From an uncultured bacterium (lineage in GTDB: Bacteria; Bacteroidota; Bacteroidia; Chitinophagales; Chitinophagaceae): a DNA stretch of 33,843 nt. The DNA is taken from positions 1 to 33,843 of the forward strand of contig CAJBBV010000051.1 of NCBI GenBank assembly GCA_903951405.1, in the 5' to 3' direction. Positions 27,700-33,180 of this stretch are shown piece by piece. The notes under the pieces are model-generated. The model worked only from the letters and a program-made list of their open reading frames with translations. It was not told where the DNA came from and did no database searches. The position numbers and the translations under genes are program-made. How positions within the stretch are numbered: the first letter of the stretch is position 1; every line of letters begins with the position of its first letter.

Positions 27700-29043
27700 T
27701 TATTTTCGGTCGAATGCTAATCGCATGCCTCGATAGCTAGTATCAACTATGTTATTTTCGTATACAGGAAAGCCATTTACAATTGTTTTTTCAATCGTTG
27801 CGGGCATTGTAAATCCTTCTAACGGGCTCCATCCACATTTGTATAAAATATTTTCCTTAGCTATGGTCATCTCTTTATTTAAGTCTACTAACACTAGATC
27901 AGCGTAATACCCTTCGCGTATAAATCCTCTCTCTTTGATATTGAAGCATGTGGCCACACTATGACTCGTTTTTTGTACAATTTTTTTAAGTGATATTTTC
28001 CCTTGTTTATGATAATGTAACATCAGCTGGAGGCTATGTTGCACTAAGGGTAAGCCTGCATGCGAGTTTGTATAACTGCCGAATTTTTCTTCCATCGTAT
28101 GTGGTGCATGATCAGTTGCTATCACATCAAGCCGATCATCTAGCAATGCTTCCCAAAGCGCTTCTTTATTCTCTTTTGATTTTATGGCGGGATTACATTT
28201 TATTTTATTGCCAAGTAATGCGTAATCATCTGCCGTAAAGTGAAGATGATGAACACATACTTCACTAGTGATGCGCTTGTCTTCCAATGGAATCATATTG
28301 CTGAATAGCTGAAGTTCTTTTGCTGTTGAAATATGCAAAATGTGCAGTCGGGTATTGTTTCTTTTAGCAAGTTGTACTGCCATCAAGGATGATTCAAAGC
28401 AACCTTCTACATCCCTGATTCGCGGATGATCTGATGCTTCAAGAATTTCTTTCTCTGACTGAATTCGTGCAAGGTTTGATTTAATGATTCGTTCGTCTTC
28501 ACAATGGGTTGCTATAAGCAATTCACTTTTTCTAAAAATGGTATCAAGTGTTAAGTGGTTGTCTACAAGCATATTTCCCGTAGATGATCCCATAAAAATT
28601 TTTATACCGCATACCTGTTCTTTTTTATCATTTGTTTTAAGTACCTCTTCCTCATTGTCGTTTGAGGTACCCATGAAAAAAGAATAATTGGCAGGAGATG
28701 AATTAGCTGCAATGGTATATTTTTCCTCAAGCAATTCTTGGGTGAGGGCAGCTGGTTTGGTATTCGGCATTTCCATAAAGCTTGTTGTTCCGCCGGCAAT
28801 GGCTGCAATAGACTCGGTATGTATGGTGGCCTTATGGGTGAGCCCTGGTTCCCTGAAATGCACTTGGTCGTCGATTAGTCCGGGTAATAGGTATTTGTTT
28901 TCCCCATTAATCTCCCTGGCGTTATATTTATTATCGATTACAGGATCTATTTTTAAAATTCGCTGATCGCCAATAAGGACATCTGCATTATAAATTCGAC
29001 CTTCGTTTACAATCTGGGTATTTTTAATGATTATTTTCGACAT
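27700..29043 (-). CDS. pyrC: dihydroorotase, class I-like, with Gln in the first metal-ligand position
   Basis: A 447-residue amidohydrolase cyclising carbamoyl-aspartate to dihydroorotate in pyrimidine synthesis. The motif after strand 1 reads IDDQVHFREPG, so Q60 replaces the first His of the usual D-x-H-x-H; H62 remains. Other sites are present: K148 (GIKIFMGSS), a candidate carbamylated lysine, H180 (IATHCED), the LHILHIST histidine and ATDHAPH. I recall the DDQVHF form from other Bacteroidota, so it is probably lineage-typical and active rather than decayed. Allantoinase or hydantoinase is the alternative reading. The start is 22 nt from the divergent RemB-like gene. Confidence 0.85.
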   Translation of the reverse strand: MSKIIIKNTQIVNEGRIYNADVLIGDQRILKIDPVIDNKYNAREINGENKYLLPGLIDDQVHFREPGLTHKATIHTESIAAIAGGTTSFMEMPNTKPAALTQELLEEKYTIAANSSPANYSFFMGTSNDNEEEVLKTNDKKEQVCGIKIFMGSSTGNMLVDNHLTLDTIFRKSELLIATHCEDERIIKSNLARIQSEKEILEASDHPRIRDVEGCFESSLMAVQLAKRNNTRLHILHISTAKELQLFSNMIPLEDKRITSEVCVHHLHFTADDYALLGNKIKCNPAIKSKENKEALWEALLDDRLDVIATDHAPHTMEEKFGSYTNSHAGLPLVQHSLQLMLHYHKQGKISLKKIVQKTSHSVATCFNIKERGFIREGYYADLVLVDLNKEMTIAKENILYKCGWSPLEGFTMPATIEKTIVNGFPVYENNIVDTSYRGMRLAFDRK

Positions 29044-29065
29044 GACTGATAATATTAGATATTGT

Positions 29066-30730
29066 ATGCAAATTATTAAATCCTTTTTAGTCGCCTTTAT
29101 TTTTATTTTCCCCCTTGTTGCTACTAGTCAATCTACACTTCTTCCACAGGGGTCAAAGGAGAATATATTGATGGATAGACTGGAAATAAAAATGCAAACT
29201 GATCCTTCCCTCAATTTTTCCTTTTTGAAGCCATTTAGTCGAAAGTCTTGGGTTGCTTCGCTCCAACGAGCACAGGATAGCGGTGAGCACATTTCGTTAA
29301 CCCCAGTTGATCGGTATAACATGTCACGTTCTATGTTAAACAATATGGAATGGGCTACGCATGATTCCAGCACATTCAAAAGTAAGCAGCCCATGCTGAA
29401 ATCATTTTTTAGAGACCCCGCTAATCTATTATTAATTGATCAAAAGGATTTTTTTCTAGCCTTGAATCCCGTTCTTCAATTACAGGCGATATATGATGAT
29501 TTCTCCGACAAGTTCCTTTATATGAATACACGAGGAGCCGTGGTGAGGTCGCTTATAGCAGGTAAAATCGGCTTTCATGCCTATTTAACGGAGACCCAAG
29601 AGAAGCCACCCATGTTTGTACGAGATCGTGTTGAAGAATTTCGTGCAGTCCCTGGGGCTGGTTTATATAAGCGCTTTAAACAAACCGGGTATGATTATTT
29701 TGATGCAAGAGGCTCAGTGTTTTTTAATGCCGCAAAATTTATTGATGTTCAATTTGGGTATGACAAGTTATTCATGGGCAGTGGATACCGAAGTTTATTC
29801 GTAAGTGATTATTCAAATAGTCATCTGTTTTTGAATCTCAATCTTCATGCAGGACGATTCAATTATATGAGTCGAATTATGGAATTAACCTCTCAGTATA
29901 CAAGAAGGGTAGATAAGGACACATTATTCCCCAAAAAATATGCAGTTATTCATCATATGAGTTTCAATGCTCCAAAATGGTTAACCATTGGACTTTTTGA
30001 GAGTATTGTTTTTGGCAGACAAGACCATTTTGAATTTAGCTACTTGAATCCTGTGATGTTTTTACGTGTTGCTGAATTGCAAGTGGGTAGTCCAGATAAT
30101 TCATTTGTAGGATTTGATGCCAAAGCAAATATAAATAAGCGTGTTCAGCTATATGGCCAAGTATTGATTGATGAATTTAATATGAAATACATCAGGCAAC
30201 GTAATGGTTGGTGGGGTAATAAATGGGCATTTCAGGGTGGGCTGAAGTATATAGACGCATTAGGGATTAAAAATTTAGACTTTCAATTGGAAGCCAATTG
30301 GATAAGACCATTTACGTATTCGCATTTTGATACCATTGCTAATTATACCCATTACAATCAACCTATAGCGCACCCATTGATGTCTAATATCCGCGAGTAT
30401 ATTGCTATTATGCGTTTGCAACCTCTTCCTAAATGGACTTTGCAAGCCAAGGCAATTTACTGGCAGAATGGGGTAGATACCGCTGGTAAAAATTTCGGAA
30501 ACAATATCTTTTTATCAAATGAAACACGCGCGACCTTTGATGGATATCAATATGGGTCACCTGTAAGTGTTAAGAACCTGAATGTAAATTTGTGGATGGC
30601 CTATGAAGTGAAAGAGAATTTTTTTGTAGAAGGAAATTTGTATTTACGTAGGGCTGGTCAGTTAGCCAATAATGTATTTGGTTCAGTTGGCATACGATGG
30701 AACATGCAACGAAGGGAGTATGATTATTAA
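29066..30730 (+). CDS. outer-membrane protein, RemB-like (gliding-associated)
   Basis: I chose the ATG at 29066 (554 residues), which starts a clean signal peptide ending VATSQS. Two upstream ATGs in frame (29027 and 29042) would overlap the divergent dihydroorotase gene. The mature protein is rich in aromatic beta-strands. Recognisable stretches are VQFGYDKLFMGSGYRSLFVSDYSNSHLF split by turns, FEFSYLNPVMFLR, and the C-terminal strand FGSVGIRWNMQ. They resemble RemB of Flavobacterium gliding motility as I remember it, and more loosely Wzi-like barrels. No lipobox is visible. The stop codon directly abuts the heptad repeat array. Confidence 0.6.
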   Translation: MQIIKSFLVAFIFIFPLVATSQSTLLPQGSKENILMDRLEIKMQTDPSLNFSFLKPFSRKSWVASLQRAQDSGEHISLTPVDRYNMSRSMLNNMEWATHDSSTFKSKQPMLKSFFRDPANLLLIDQKDFFLALNPVLQLQAIYDDFSDKFLYMNTRGAVVRSLIAGKIGFHAYLTETQEKPPMFVRDRVEEFRAVPGAGLYKRFKQTGYDYFDARGSVFFNAAKFIDVQFGYDKLFMGSGYRSLFVSDYSNSHLFLNLNLHAGRFNYMSRIMELTSQYTRRVDKDTLFPKKYAVIHHMSFNAPKWLTIGLFESIVFGRQDHFEFSYLNPVMFLRVAELQVGSPDNSFVGFDAKANINKRVQLYGQVLIDEFNMKYIRQRNGWWGNKWAFQGGLKYIDALGIKNLDFQLEANWIRPFTYSHFDTIANYTHYNQPIAHPLMSNIREYIAIMRLQPLPKWTLQAKAIYWQNGVDTAGKNFGNNIFLSNETRATFDGYQYGSPVSVKNLNVNLWMAYEVKENFFVEGNLYLRRAGQLANNVFGSVGIRWNMQRREYDY

Positions 30731-31014
30731 ACGCTTTACGCTGAGCGTTTTGGGTTGGGAGTTGGGGGTTGGGGGTTATCGCTTTACGCTTAGCGCTTAA
30801 CGCTTTACGCTTATCGCTTTACGCTTTTTATGAAATAACCCCTAACATTTAACGTCTAACATCTAACGTCTAACTTCTAACATCTAACATCTAACATCTA
30901 ACGTCTAACCCCTAACCCCTAACATCTAACCCCTAACATCTAACATCTAACGTCTAACGTCTAACATCTACCCCCTAACATCTAACGTCTAACATCTAAC
31001 GTCTAACATCTAAC
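30731..31014. repeat. heptanucleotide-phased repeat array filling a convergent stop-to-stop gap
   Basis: All 284 bases divide into 40 consecutive 7-mers plus 4 bases with no phase slip. Block A (30731-30751) has ACGCTTT-like units. Block B (30752-30779) is GGGTTGG, GAGTTGG, GGGTTGG, GGGTTAT. Block C (30780-30828) is seven CGCTTNN units. One irregular 7-mer (30829-30835) follows. Block D (30836-31010) is 25 units of TAACNNC type: 11 TAACATC, 7 TAACGTC, 4 TAACCCC, and single TAACATT, TAACTTC and TACCCCC units. A last TAAC (31011-31014) touches the porT stop codon. The G-rich block B is the inverted complement type of the TAACCCC units. The array begins directly after the RemB-like stop codon. 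It has no spacers, so it is not CRISPR. Confidence 0.95.
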
Positions 31015-31749
31015 TCATTTCCCCCCTCCTTCAAAATGCAAGGAGAAGAGAATCATTCGGCTGTTCATCTTATCAATAACATTGGAGTAGATTAATTTTT
31101 CATCTCGGCTATGTACATTGGAAAGTCCATAGCTGAATTTTATCTCTGGAGATAAGATGAAGTAGGGGAAGAAAAATTGGAAGCCAATCCCTCCTTCAAT
31201 ACCATAGTCTGTTTTATTTACCTTGACGATGTTATCTGAATTTCGTGCACCTGAATTGCTTGCTAGGTCAAAATCGTATTTCATTCCAGCCAGGGTATAC
31301 ACTCGAAAATTATTTATTCGGTCGCTTTTTAACCTCACTTGCAACGGGAAGCTCATTACGATGGATTCTACGTTTTGCTTTTCATATGTTGTGCTTTGGT
31401 CATTTGGATAGCGTAGGGTGTATCCAAATTTCTTTTCACTAAATATGAGGTTCAATGGGTAGAATCGGAAATCGAGGTGTTTTGAGACCTGGTAAGTGGC
31501 CATGATGCCTAAATGTATGCGGCCACTATTTTTAGAATTAACTGTCTGAACAGTATCTCGATTAAGAAAATAGGGATGATGCGTAATGTTATAATGAGAA
31601 GTGTTATAGCCTAACACAATGCCGAAATAATATTTCTTTTCATCATGGTCGGGTAGATTCAATTCTATCCCATGCTGAGCATAGGATGACAGCATGATGA
31701 AAAGACATATAGTTAATGATATTATTTTTCGCCTATGTAGATGCTGCAT
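31015..31749 (-). CDS. porT: PorT/SprT-like outer-membrane beta-barrel, T9SS component
   Basis: A 244-residue barrel with a signal peptide (about 1-24, ending SSYAQ). The body shows FGIVLGYNTSHYNI, HLDFRFYPLNLIFSEKKFGY, MSFPLQVRLKSDRINNFRVY and a final MILFSLHFEG strand. The run from RFYPLNL to the SDRINNFR motif and then GIGFQFFFPYFILSPEIKFS follows PorT/SprT as I remember it. PorT is required for secretion by T9SS. Its first 28 nt overlap the end of ubiE, and the ubiE-porT pairing is frequent in Bacteroidota. Generic PorT-fold porin is the alternative. The stop codon is the first base after the heptad array. Confidence 0.75.
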   Translation of the reverse strand: MQHLHRRKIISLTICLFIMLSSYAQHGIELNLPDHDEKKYYFGIVLGYNTSHYNITHHPYFLNRDTVQTVNSKNSGRIHLGIMATYQVSKHLDFRFYPLNLIFSEKKFGYTLRYPNDQSTTYEKQNVESIVMSFPLQVRLKSDRINNFRVYTLAGMKYDFDLASNSGARNSDNIVKVNKTDYGIEGGIGFQFFFPYFILSPEIKFSYGLSNVHSRDEKLIYSNVIDKMNSRMILFSLHFEGGGK

Positions 31750-32465
31750 ATTCCTAAGCTAAGTCTGTTGAATGAGGTATTGCTATATCCGGTGGATGAA
31801 AGAATTTGGATGAATTCTTTTCCTTCCGGAAATTTTTGAACTGAATCGTTTAGGTATTGATAAGCGTCTCTGTTTTTTGAAAATAGTCGTCCCATTCCTG
31901 GGGCTACAATTGACATATAGAGGTTGTAAATTTGTTGGATAACAGGAAGGGAAGGACGAGAAAATTCCAACACGACCAGTTTGCCGCCGGGCTTTAGTAC
32001 CCTGTTTATTTCAGAAAGACCTTTTTCAAGATGTTGAAAATTTCTCACACCAAATGAAACGGTGACCGCATCGAATGAATTATCAGCAAAATTCAGGGCC
32101 TCACTGTCTCCCAATTGGAGTTCGATGGTATTTTCCAGTTGAGCTTCTCTGATTTTTTTTCTTCCTAGGTCAAGCATGCCTTCGGAGATGTCAATTCCGA
32201 TGATTTTTTTAGGACCAAGTAGTTTGGTTGCAAGGATTGCCACGTCTGCAGTGCCGGTTGCTACATCCAAAATCACCTGTGGATTAATGCTTTTGAGTGC
32301 CCCTAATGCCTTTTTTCTCCAACTAATGTCAATGCCAGCAGATAAAAACCGGTTAAGAAAGTCGTATTGCGGAGCAATTCTGTTGAACATGAGTGCCACC
32401 TGCTCTTTTTTCGATAAATTTGATGCAATATCAGGAACGACAGTATCGTGAGCGAATTTCCCCAT
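31722..32465 (-). CDS. ubiE: demethylmenaquinone / ubiquinone methyltransferase
   Basis: A 247-residue SAM-dependent methyltransferase; in Bacteroidota it makes menaquinone from demethylmenaquinone (MenG function). I chose the ATG at 32465 (MGKFAHDTVVPD). The longer frame to 32558 lies over the engB start region and lacks family resemblance. Motifs are MFNRIAPQYDFLNRFLSAGID (about 26-46, read in two parts), VILDVATGTADVAIL (64-78) for SAM, the DNSFDAVTVSFGVRNF region, and RVLKPGGKLVVLEFS. Its 3' end overlaps porT by 28 nt. Confidence 0.93.
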   Translation of the reverse strand: MGKFAHDTVVPDIASNLSKKEQVALMFNRIAPQYDFLNRFLSAGIDISWRKKALGALKSINPQVILDVATGTADVAILATKLLGPKKIIGIDISEGMLDLGRKKIREAQLENTIELQLGDSEALNFADNSFDAVTVSFGVRNFQHLEKGLSEINRVLKPGGKLVVLEFSRPSLPVIQQIYNLYMSIVAPGMGRLFSKNRDAYQYLNDSVQKFPEGKEFIQILSSTGYSNTSFNRLSLGICSIYIGEK

Positions 32466-32470
32466 GGCTA

Positions 32471-32478
32471 CAAAAATA
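32471..32478 (-). promoter_or_regulatory. possible -7 box of ubiE-porT
   Basis: The minus strand reads TATTTTTG, an exact TAnnTTTG match, but only 5 nt separate it from the ubiE ATG. The transcript would be leaderless or nearly so. It may be chance. Confidence 0.3.
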
Positions 32479-32529
32479 GTCAAATTAGCCACTTTAGGTC
32501 TTAAAGCTTTTATAAATCTCAACCAATCC

Positions 32530-33180
32530 ATGATCTTTACCAAGGCGACATACATCATCAGTAATCCAGATCATACAGCTTGTCCTAAGCCAGATCGACC
32601 AGAATATGCATTTATCGGTCGCAGTAACGTGGGCAAATCCTCGTTGATTAATATGATTACCGGGATTAAAAATTTAGCGAAGACTTCCGGCACACCGGGG
32701 AAGACTCAATTGATCAATCATTTTTTTATAGAGAGTAAGGCGAAAGAGCTTGCTCCATTACAGCAATGGTATTTGGTTGATCTTCCAGGATATGGTTTTG
32801 CTAAAGTTTCTGCATCGAAGCGAAAGAGTTGGGAGAAGATGATTGGAGAATATGTTCGTTCTAGGGAAAATCTGATTAATCTTTTTGTATTGGTTGATTC
32901 AAGGCATACTCCTCAGCAGCTTGACCTTGATTTTGTAAATAAGATGGGTGAGTGGAAGGTTCCATTTGCTATCGTATTCACAAAATCGGATAAAGAAACT
33001 CAAAAGGTTGTAAGTGCCCACGTGCGTCAATTTGCAGAAGCCATGAAAAAAACATGGGTAGAACTCCCGCCCATATTTGTTACAAGTGCTGAGAAAAAAA
33101 CAGGGAAAGCAGATTTAGTGACTTTGATTGAGGAAATGAATAAGGAGGCTTTTGAGAAATTTAAAAATAAGGATGCATGA
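32530..33180 (+). CDS. engB: ribosome biogenesis GTPase EngB (YsxC/YihA)
   Basis: A 216-residue small GTPase needed for large-subunit assembly. I chose the ATG at 32530 (MIFTKATYIISNPDHTACP), not the one at 32464, which adds 22 atypical residues and overlaps the ubiE start. G-motifs: G1 GRSNVGKSS, G2/switch GTPGKTQ, G3 DLPGYG, G4 TKSD, and the G5-like TSAEKKTG. It is divergent from ubiE and overlaps the next gene by 4 nt (ATGA). Confidence 0.95.
   Translation: MIFTKATYIISNPDHTACPKPDRPEYAFIGRSNVGKSSLINMITGIKNLAKTSGTPGKTQLINHFFIESKAKELAPLQQWYLVDLPGYGFAKVSASKRKSWEKMIGEYVRSRENLINLFVLVDSRHTPQQLDLDFVNKMGEWKVPFAIVFTKSDKETQKVVSAHVRQFAEAMKKTWVELPPIFVTSAEKKTGKADLVTLIEEMNKEAFEKFKNKDA

Follow-up and report, generated by a model that had tools for sequence, protein, structure and literature searches.

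A two-armed heptanucleotide repeat array between convergent genes of a Chitinophagaceae bacterium and the polarity of similar arrays beside genes

Results

A heptad array occupies the gap between two convergent genes

The window, i.e. the whole stretch of 33,843 nt that was analysed, carries two convergent genes whose stop codons enclose a repeat array. The features of this locus are as follows.

29027..30730, + strand: left flanking gene, an ORF of 567 aa with its stop TAA at 30728-30730
30731..30828, + strand: left arm of the array, 14 GYTNNNN heptads directed away from the left gene, with a 1-nt slip at 30775-30781
30829..30835, no strand: TATGAAA, the centre of the array; the stretch TTTTATGAAATAAC that spans it recurs in the sister species G421 and G424
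30836..31014, - strand: right arm of the array, 25 units plus TAAC, with GTTAG-type heptads on the - strand reading away from porT
31015..31749, - strand: porT/sprT, type IX secretion protein of 244 aa, convergent with the left gene (NF052311, E 1.7e-57)

The gap between the genes (30731-31014) measures 284 nt, that is 40 x 7 + 4 nt, and is bounded exactly by the two convergent stop codons, the TAA at 30728-30730 on the left and the porT stop, complement of 31015-31017, on the right. The coordinates thus confirm the extent given by an earlier sequence-only reading, which had counted 40 units plus TAAC from stop to stop. The same reading had named the right gene porT, in agreement with the NF052311 match, and the left gene RemB-like; the latter name was not borne out, as the 567-aa ORF gave no Pfam or NCBIfam match at E 0.001. 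A homologue of the left gene adjoins porT in 17 of 29 other loci of the genus. The porT ORF and a same-strand ORF at 31722-32558 overlap by 28 nt (31722-31749). Rfam at gathering scores gave no match in the window.

The identity of the array with itself at lag 7 was 0.75, as against 0.265 +/- 0.027 in 2000 dinucleotide-preserving shuffles, whose highest identity at any lag up to 30 was 0.39. Tandem Repeats Finder (TRF) returned three rows for the window, all of period 7 or 21 and all inside the array. The register is nearly constant. The GYT triplets stand at offset 2 (mod 7) in 30733-30775 and at offset 1 in 30781-30823, so that the phase, which had been said never to slip, shifts by one base between 30775 and 30781.

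Opening with the units GCTTTAC, GCTGAGC, GTTTTGG, GTTGGGA and GTTGGGG, the left arm consists of GCTTTAC, GTTGGGG and GCTTAAC types. It holds four G-tracts at 30752-30775 (GGGTTGGGAGTTGGGGGTTGGGGG), which are separated by short loops and would together form a putative G-quadruplex. Read on the + strand, 23 of the 25 units of the right arm are TAACNNC, the exceptions being TAACATT and TACCCCC. The block TATGAAA between the arms matches none of the unit families of the sequence-only reading. That reading had distinguished three families; the units do vary, but a GYT start is common to the families, which make up two arms of opposite orientation. From their letters they therefore seem better read as dialects within two facing GYTNNNN arms, 14 units on the + strand and 25 on the - strand, across TATGAAA. 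GYT heptads made up at least 60% of the arm in 32 of 66 arms of the same genome, compared with 2/66 when the letters were reversed and 2/66 on the C strand; arms below this share use other dialects, e.g. GGCAATA.

Similar arrays in the same genome and in other taxa

As the sequence-only reading had proposed, runs of TAACNNC and CGCTTNN were searched for genome-wide. Three successive units of TAACNNC gave 152 matches in the genome that carries the window (G000) and three of CGCTTNN gave 13, with no match for either reversed-letter control; BLAST with the array as query gave 71 matches. Over the targeted loci, the window and a single sampled contig, 44 distinct 7-periodic regions were found, one of them within a called ORF. 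The array in the window thus has some forty heptanucleotide simple-repeat arrays for company in this genome, itself counted in, and most of them lie outside called ORFs.

In three loci of this genome (L040, L030 and L044) a second dialect, GGCAATA / TATTGCC, forms pairs with arms of the GCT and GTT kinds, and blocks of several heptads are repeated in L040 when inspected by eye. At L212:3633-4213, G-rich and C-rich heptad arms alternate within one intergenic region (+ - + - + - by eye) with changing dialects. At the first bases of contigs C3, C62, C64, C79 and C155 of G000, the contig end falls within or next to a heptad array; these arrays are probably points at which the assembly breaks.

Among 394 genomes of the family, the own one included, the threefold TAACNNC pattern was present in 70. 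The reversed-letter control was not clean across the family, with many matches in G183, G317 and G342 that are perhaps another heptad dialect. A scan of named genomes found at least 114 stretches with the pattern; among the 80 matches listed, 65 were Bacteroidota by title, and the others include Vibrio, Shewanella, Pseudoalteromonas, Chamaesiphon and Acidobacteria. Since many of these matches are metagenome bins, some taxon placements may reflect contamination.

Period 7 was the commonest in all four sets of loci. It accounted for 2 of 3 single-period tandem runs in a sample drawn by contig number together with the window (164 kb without N), 6 of 8 tandem runs at 27 porT loci of the family, 8 of 10 at porT loci of the genus, with 5 of the 8 located in the gap studied here, and 72 of 126 at the scan-derived loci away from the scanned pattern, where period 6 came second with 14. 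Together with the varying gap lengths of the sister species described below, this upholds the earlier view of a near-constant period with changing units.

The same gap in related species

The gap beside porT was compared over 30 loci of the genus including the own one. Of these 18 were readable; in the other 12 the neighbouring gene was absent from the fetched stretch or the contig ended. Lengths run from the end of one protein match to the end of the other and thus include the stop codons. Measured in this way, the gap is 290 nt in G000, 108 nt in G421 (porT identity 96%) and 231 nt in G424 (95%), and all three are heptad arrays with a common centre. Multi-heptad blocks are repeated in the G424 gap by eye. 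Between G000 and G421 the flanking DNA is 95% identical and the gap lengths are 182 nt (26 x 7) apart. In G414 (84%) the gap is 159 nt long and its arms are of GAATGAA and TTCTTCAT type. A gap of 16-18 nt and no array were seen in six congeners with 77-82% porT identity, while at 81% the gap is 58 nt in G053 and 575 nt in G139, the latter with a short TTCTCTT run beside porT. The six loci at 67-71% identity have gaps of 20, 25, 50, 60, 103 and 1131 nt with no lag-7 signal. Compared across these sequences, the array looks like a recent expansion.

The sequence-only reading had itself raised an assembly artefact as grounds for discarding the array, and several array loci do lie at contig ends. 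Arrays with a common centre in the same gap of three separate assemblies (G000, G421 and G424) make such an artefact very unlikely, and similar arrays occur in named isolate genomes; we give this explanation a next to negligible probability.

Length change and the growth of the arrays

Gap lengths were compared between species in 24 hand-picked pairs, one of which had no array at the threshold; four further cases had no usable anchors. In 21 of 21 comparisons of array gaps the lengths differed, several of these being the same locus in different pairs. The whole-gap difference was a multiple of 7 in 5 of the 21, with about 3 expected. A mechanism that measures length, as suggested in the sequence-only reading, is therefore not supported by these differences, and indels of other kinds must act too.

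The homogeneity of units along the arms was considered as a sign of a growth end. A gradient first seen in the own genome (28 positive and 6 negative), but not in other taxa (29 and 21), vanished when contiguous runs were used with the spacer left out (16 and 10 own, 23 and 30 in other taxa), and the reading was dropped. With no homogeneity gradient along contiguous runs, no growth end is identifiable.

We consider it probable that the array consists of slippage-grown heptanucleotide repeats with polarised placement, and slippage would be the likeliest mechanism of growth. A short gap, such as the 16-18 nt of the six congeners, would have grown in 7-nt steps by strand slippage and unequal exchange. 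Point mutation would make the units drift while multi-heptad blocks are re-copied, and drift together with re-copying could give several unit families in nearly one register. Selection against growth into coding sequence may be why the array ends at the stop codons. Against this account stand the small number of whole-gap differences that are multiples of 7 and the GYT share, which reaches 60% in fewer than half of the own-genome arms (the 32 of 66 above).

As another possible route of growth, the sequence-only reading had listed a 7-nt templating step. In such a model a telomerase-like or other reverse transcriptase with a 7-nt template would extend broken ends by heptads, and the ends would then be rejoined head to head. 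The heptads GTTAGGG and GTTGGGG do occur, and in their G-strand polarity the arms are like a pair of fused telomeres. The search, made with the RVT_1 model, gave no match in the own genome (an assembly 91% complete) or in the array-bearing G139 and G286, and a match in 4 of the 31 genus genomes searched, so the suggestion gained no support. The many different unit dialects also speak against it, as does a unique palindrome between the arms of L009 and L022, by eye the original gap. Templated addition is thus extremely improbable.

The G-rich strand mostly reads away from the nearest gene boundary

Twenty-one of the 44 regions of the own genome are two-armed with a G-skewed arm followed by a C-skewed one, and none shows the reverse order; 21 are one-armed and 2 unclear. 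The 172 regions of other taxa include 23 in G-then-C order and 2 reversed (23/25 oriented). When arms within 40 nt of a gene boundary were counted, the G-rich strand read away from the nearest boundary in 41 of 43 own arms and 101 of 114 arms elsewhere. This count leaves out ORF-overlapping arrays, arms of weak skew, arms more than 40 nt away and 6 arms equidistant from two genes; its genes are simple ORF calls with uncertain start positions, and the two arms of one locus, as well as loci cut by contig ends (e.g. L009 and L013), are non-independent.

The same direction was seen in one-armed arrays alone, which read away rather than toward at stops by 10 to 1 in the own genome and 45 to 4 in others, and at starts by 4 to 0 and 23 to 6, respectively. 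Array-free sequence beyond stops had no such skew (G 21 and C 32 own; 141 and 152 others), and that beyond starts was weakly skewed (63 to 28 own; 202 to 133 others), which makes the start-codon half of the rule the weaker one. Arrays away from the scanned pattern gave 20 to 5 and porT loci 11 to 2. Arrays of periods other than 7 gave 8 to 0 in the same direction, so the polarity may extend beyond period 7, although the number is small.

Polarity was also scored by motif instead of skew. Chains of GYT heptads gave 35 to 3 in the own genome, 31 to 2 in sisters and 37 to 11 in others, and the order of facing pairs by the same motif was 16 to 2, 14 to 1 and 2 to 0, respectively. GCTTAAC is ambiguous in this count because its complement also begins with GYT.

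Arms without four G3 tracts, which are 32 of the 43 own arms, kept the polarity (31 to 1 own, 24 to 1 in sisters, 95 to 13 in others). Judging from these letters, the direction rule that Rehm et al. (2015) reported for G-quadruplex (G4) repeats seems to extend to the present arrays, most of which lack the capacity to form quadruplexes. A further candidate cause, the presence of stops in every reading frame, is frequent on either strand (55 and 41 of the 66 own arms) and therefore does not explain the polarity. Among the papers listed by searches of one open literature library, none dealt with this polarity in Bacteroidota.

Discussion

What the polarity may reflect

The polarity is outside what plain slippage predicts. 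Our working guess is that it comes from selection or mutational bias on strand composition beside gene ends.

It is unlikely, in our estimate, that the arrays act as two-way transcription insulators, halting readthrough and antisense transcription before the neighbour. Outgoing transcripts would read the G-rich strand, prone to G4 and R-loop formation, and incoming ones would read C-rich, G-poor heptads, an RNA that might load Rho. The polarity at both gene ends, set against the unskewed array-free background at stops, would fit such a role. Rho is encoded in the own genome, and a simple scan of 30600-31150 found no intrinsic terminator. Transcript starts and stops are more frequent at the G4-type repeats of Xanthomonas (Rehm et al. 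2015, PMC4692102). However, arms also adjoin called start codons, where they would become part of the leader of that gene, the G/C skew of GCT-type heptads is close to nil, and most congeners with a readable porT gap have no array there.

Retention of the facing arms because they pair as a long RNA or cruciform hairpin is highly unlikely. The array of the window folds at -61.6 kcal/mol (z -4.8), and the arms are strongly complementary in some loci (L022, L031 and L045). Over 18 of the 21 two-armed regions, with separate periodic runs as arms and hand-set arms for the window, pairing was -25.6 within loci and -23.1 across loci, a weak and non-significant trend (530 of 5000 permutations as good; 442 of 5000 at the second of two lengths). 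An earlier version (19 loci, 911/5000) had split the arms by GC skew, which fell inside the left arm of the window and probably of L030. In the 11 loci with both arms GTTAG-type, same-locus and cross-locus pairing were equal (-42.5 each; 2412/5000), and several loci pair non-complementary dialects. Pairing would also leave the missing reverse arm order unexplained.

Quite unlikely, too, is an undescribed directional process, replicative or transcriptional, that counts seven bases and recognises coding boundaries and that gives the intergenic heptad arrays of Bacteroidota, Xanthomonas and Cyanobacteria a single polarity, the G-strand leading away from the closest gene boundary irrespective of the gene's direction. 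If it were true, the G-quadruplex explanation would be a special case and not the cause. The question of why these repeats point away from genes can be put to the test in sister species, where versions of a single gap measure 108, 231 and 290 nt.

Comparison with known heptamer repeats

The sequence-only reading did not recognise the array as a named element; the class is already in print as heptamer repeats (MacGregor 2015; Rehm et al. 2015). The array is of a known kind, heptanucleotide simple repeats, and differs as a two-armed mosaic. The tandem 7-nt period beyond chance that marks such repeats is present here (0.75 against the shuffles). The heptanucleotide repeats of cyanobacteria go by the name STRR and, likened by description and not by sequence comparison, are also tandem heptanucleotides; three tandem heptanucleotides of Calothrix are mentioned by Rehm et al. 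(2015, PMC4692102). Heptanucleotides are the commonest long simple sequence repeats in most prokaryote genomes according to Mrazek et al. (2007), as cited in PMC4692102 and PMC4679880. The array shares with them period 7 and the proposed polymerase slippage, but its units are degenerate and stand in facing arms.

MacGregor (2015, PMC4679880) describes direct repeats of TAACTGA in Beggiatoaceae, Cyanobacteria and five Bacteroidetes; two Cyanothece strains differ there by indels that are mostly steps of 7 nt. Like these, the array has TAAC-type heptads with other heptamers mixed in, is an intergenic expansion absent from close relatives and carries stop codons in all three frames. Unlike them, its unit is TAACNNC, with no exact TAACTGA among the units at 30836-31014. 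The TAACTGA repeats lie mainly forward ahead of start codons, whereas both flanks here are stop codons; eight Microcystis sets do lie between stop codons, all in one chromosomal orientation, whereas the arms here face each other.

The closest likeness is to the heptameric G4 repeats GGGNATC and GGGGA(C/T)T of Xanthomonas and Nostoc (Rehm et al. 2015, PMC4692102). As reported there, these sit closest to the 5' neighbouring ORF in any ORF orientation, with the G-rich strand at most 50 bp past stops (sense) or ahead of starts (antisense); facing pairs number 70 in Xcc and 75 in Xac and are few in Nostoc, and the distribution is unchanged when shorter and mutated repeats are counted in. The passages on placement discuss it in light of G-quadruplexes and identify no role. 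Both kinds of repeat are seven-base, mostly intergenic, under-represented between divergent genes and of different length among related species, and the G-rich strand is placed alike, at stops in sense and at starts in antisense (the 41/43 and 101/114 arms above). In contrast to the G4-type heptamers, units here are mostly GTTAGNN, GCTNNNN and GGCAATA, the 32 of 43 own arms noted above lack four G3 tracts (the left arm of the window does hold four G-tracts), and the arms can be long and mix unit families; G4-type heptamers prefer four units, and the arms at this one locus have 14 and 25. As far as these sequences indicate, the present arrays differ in that they extend the polarity of Rehm et al. 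to units that mostly have no G4 potential and mostly belong to another phylum. Because arms lacking four G-tracts are placed alike, for the most part in a different phylum and with a control for background, G4 formation is weakened as the general explanation of the placement.
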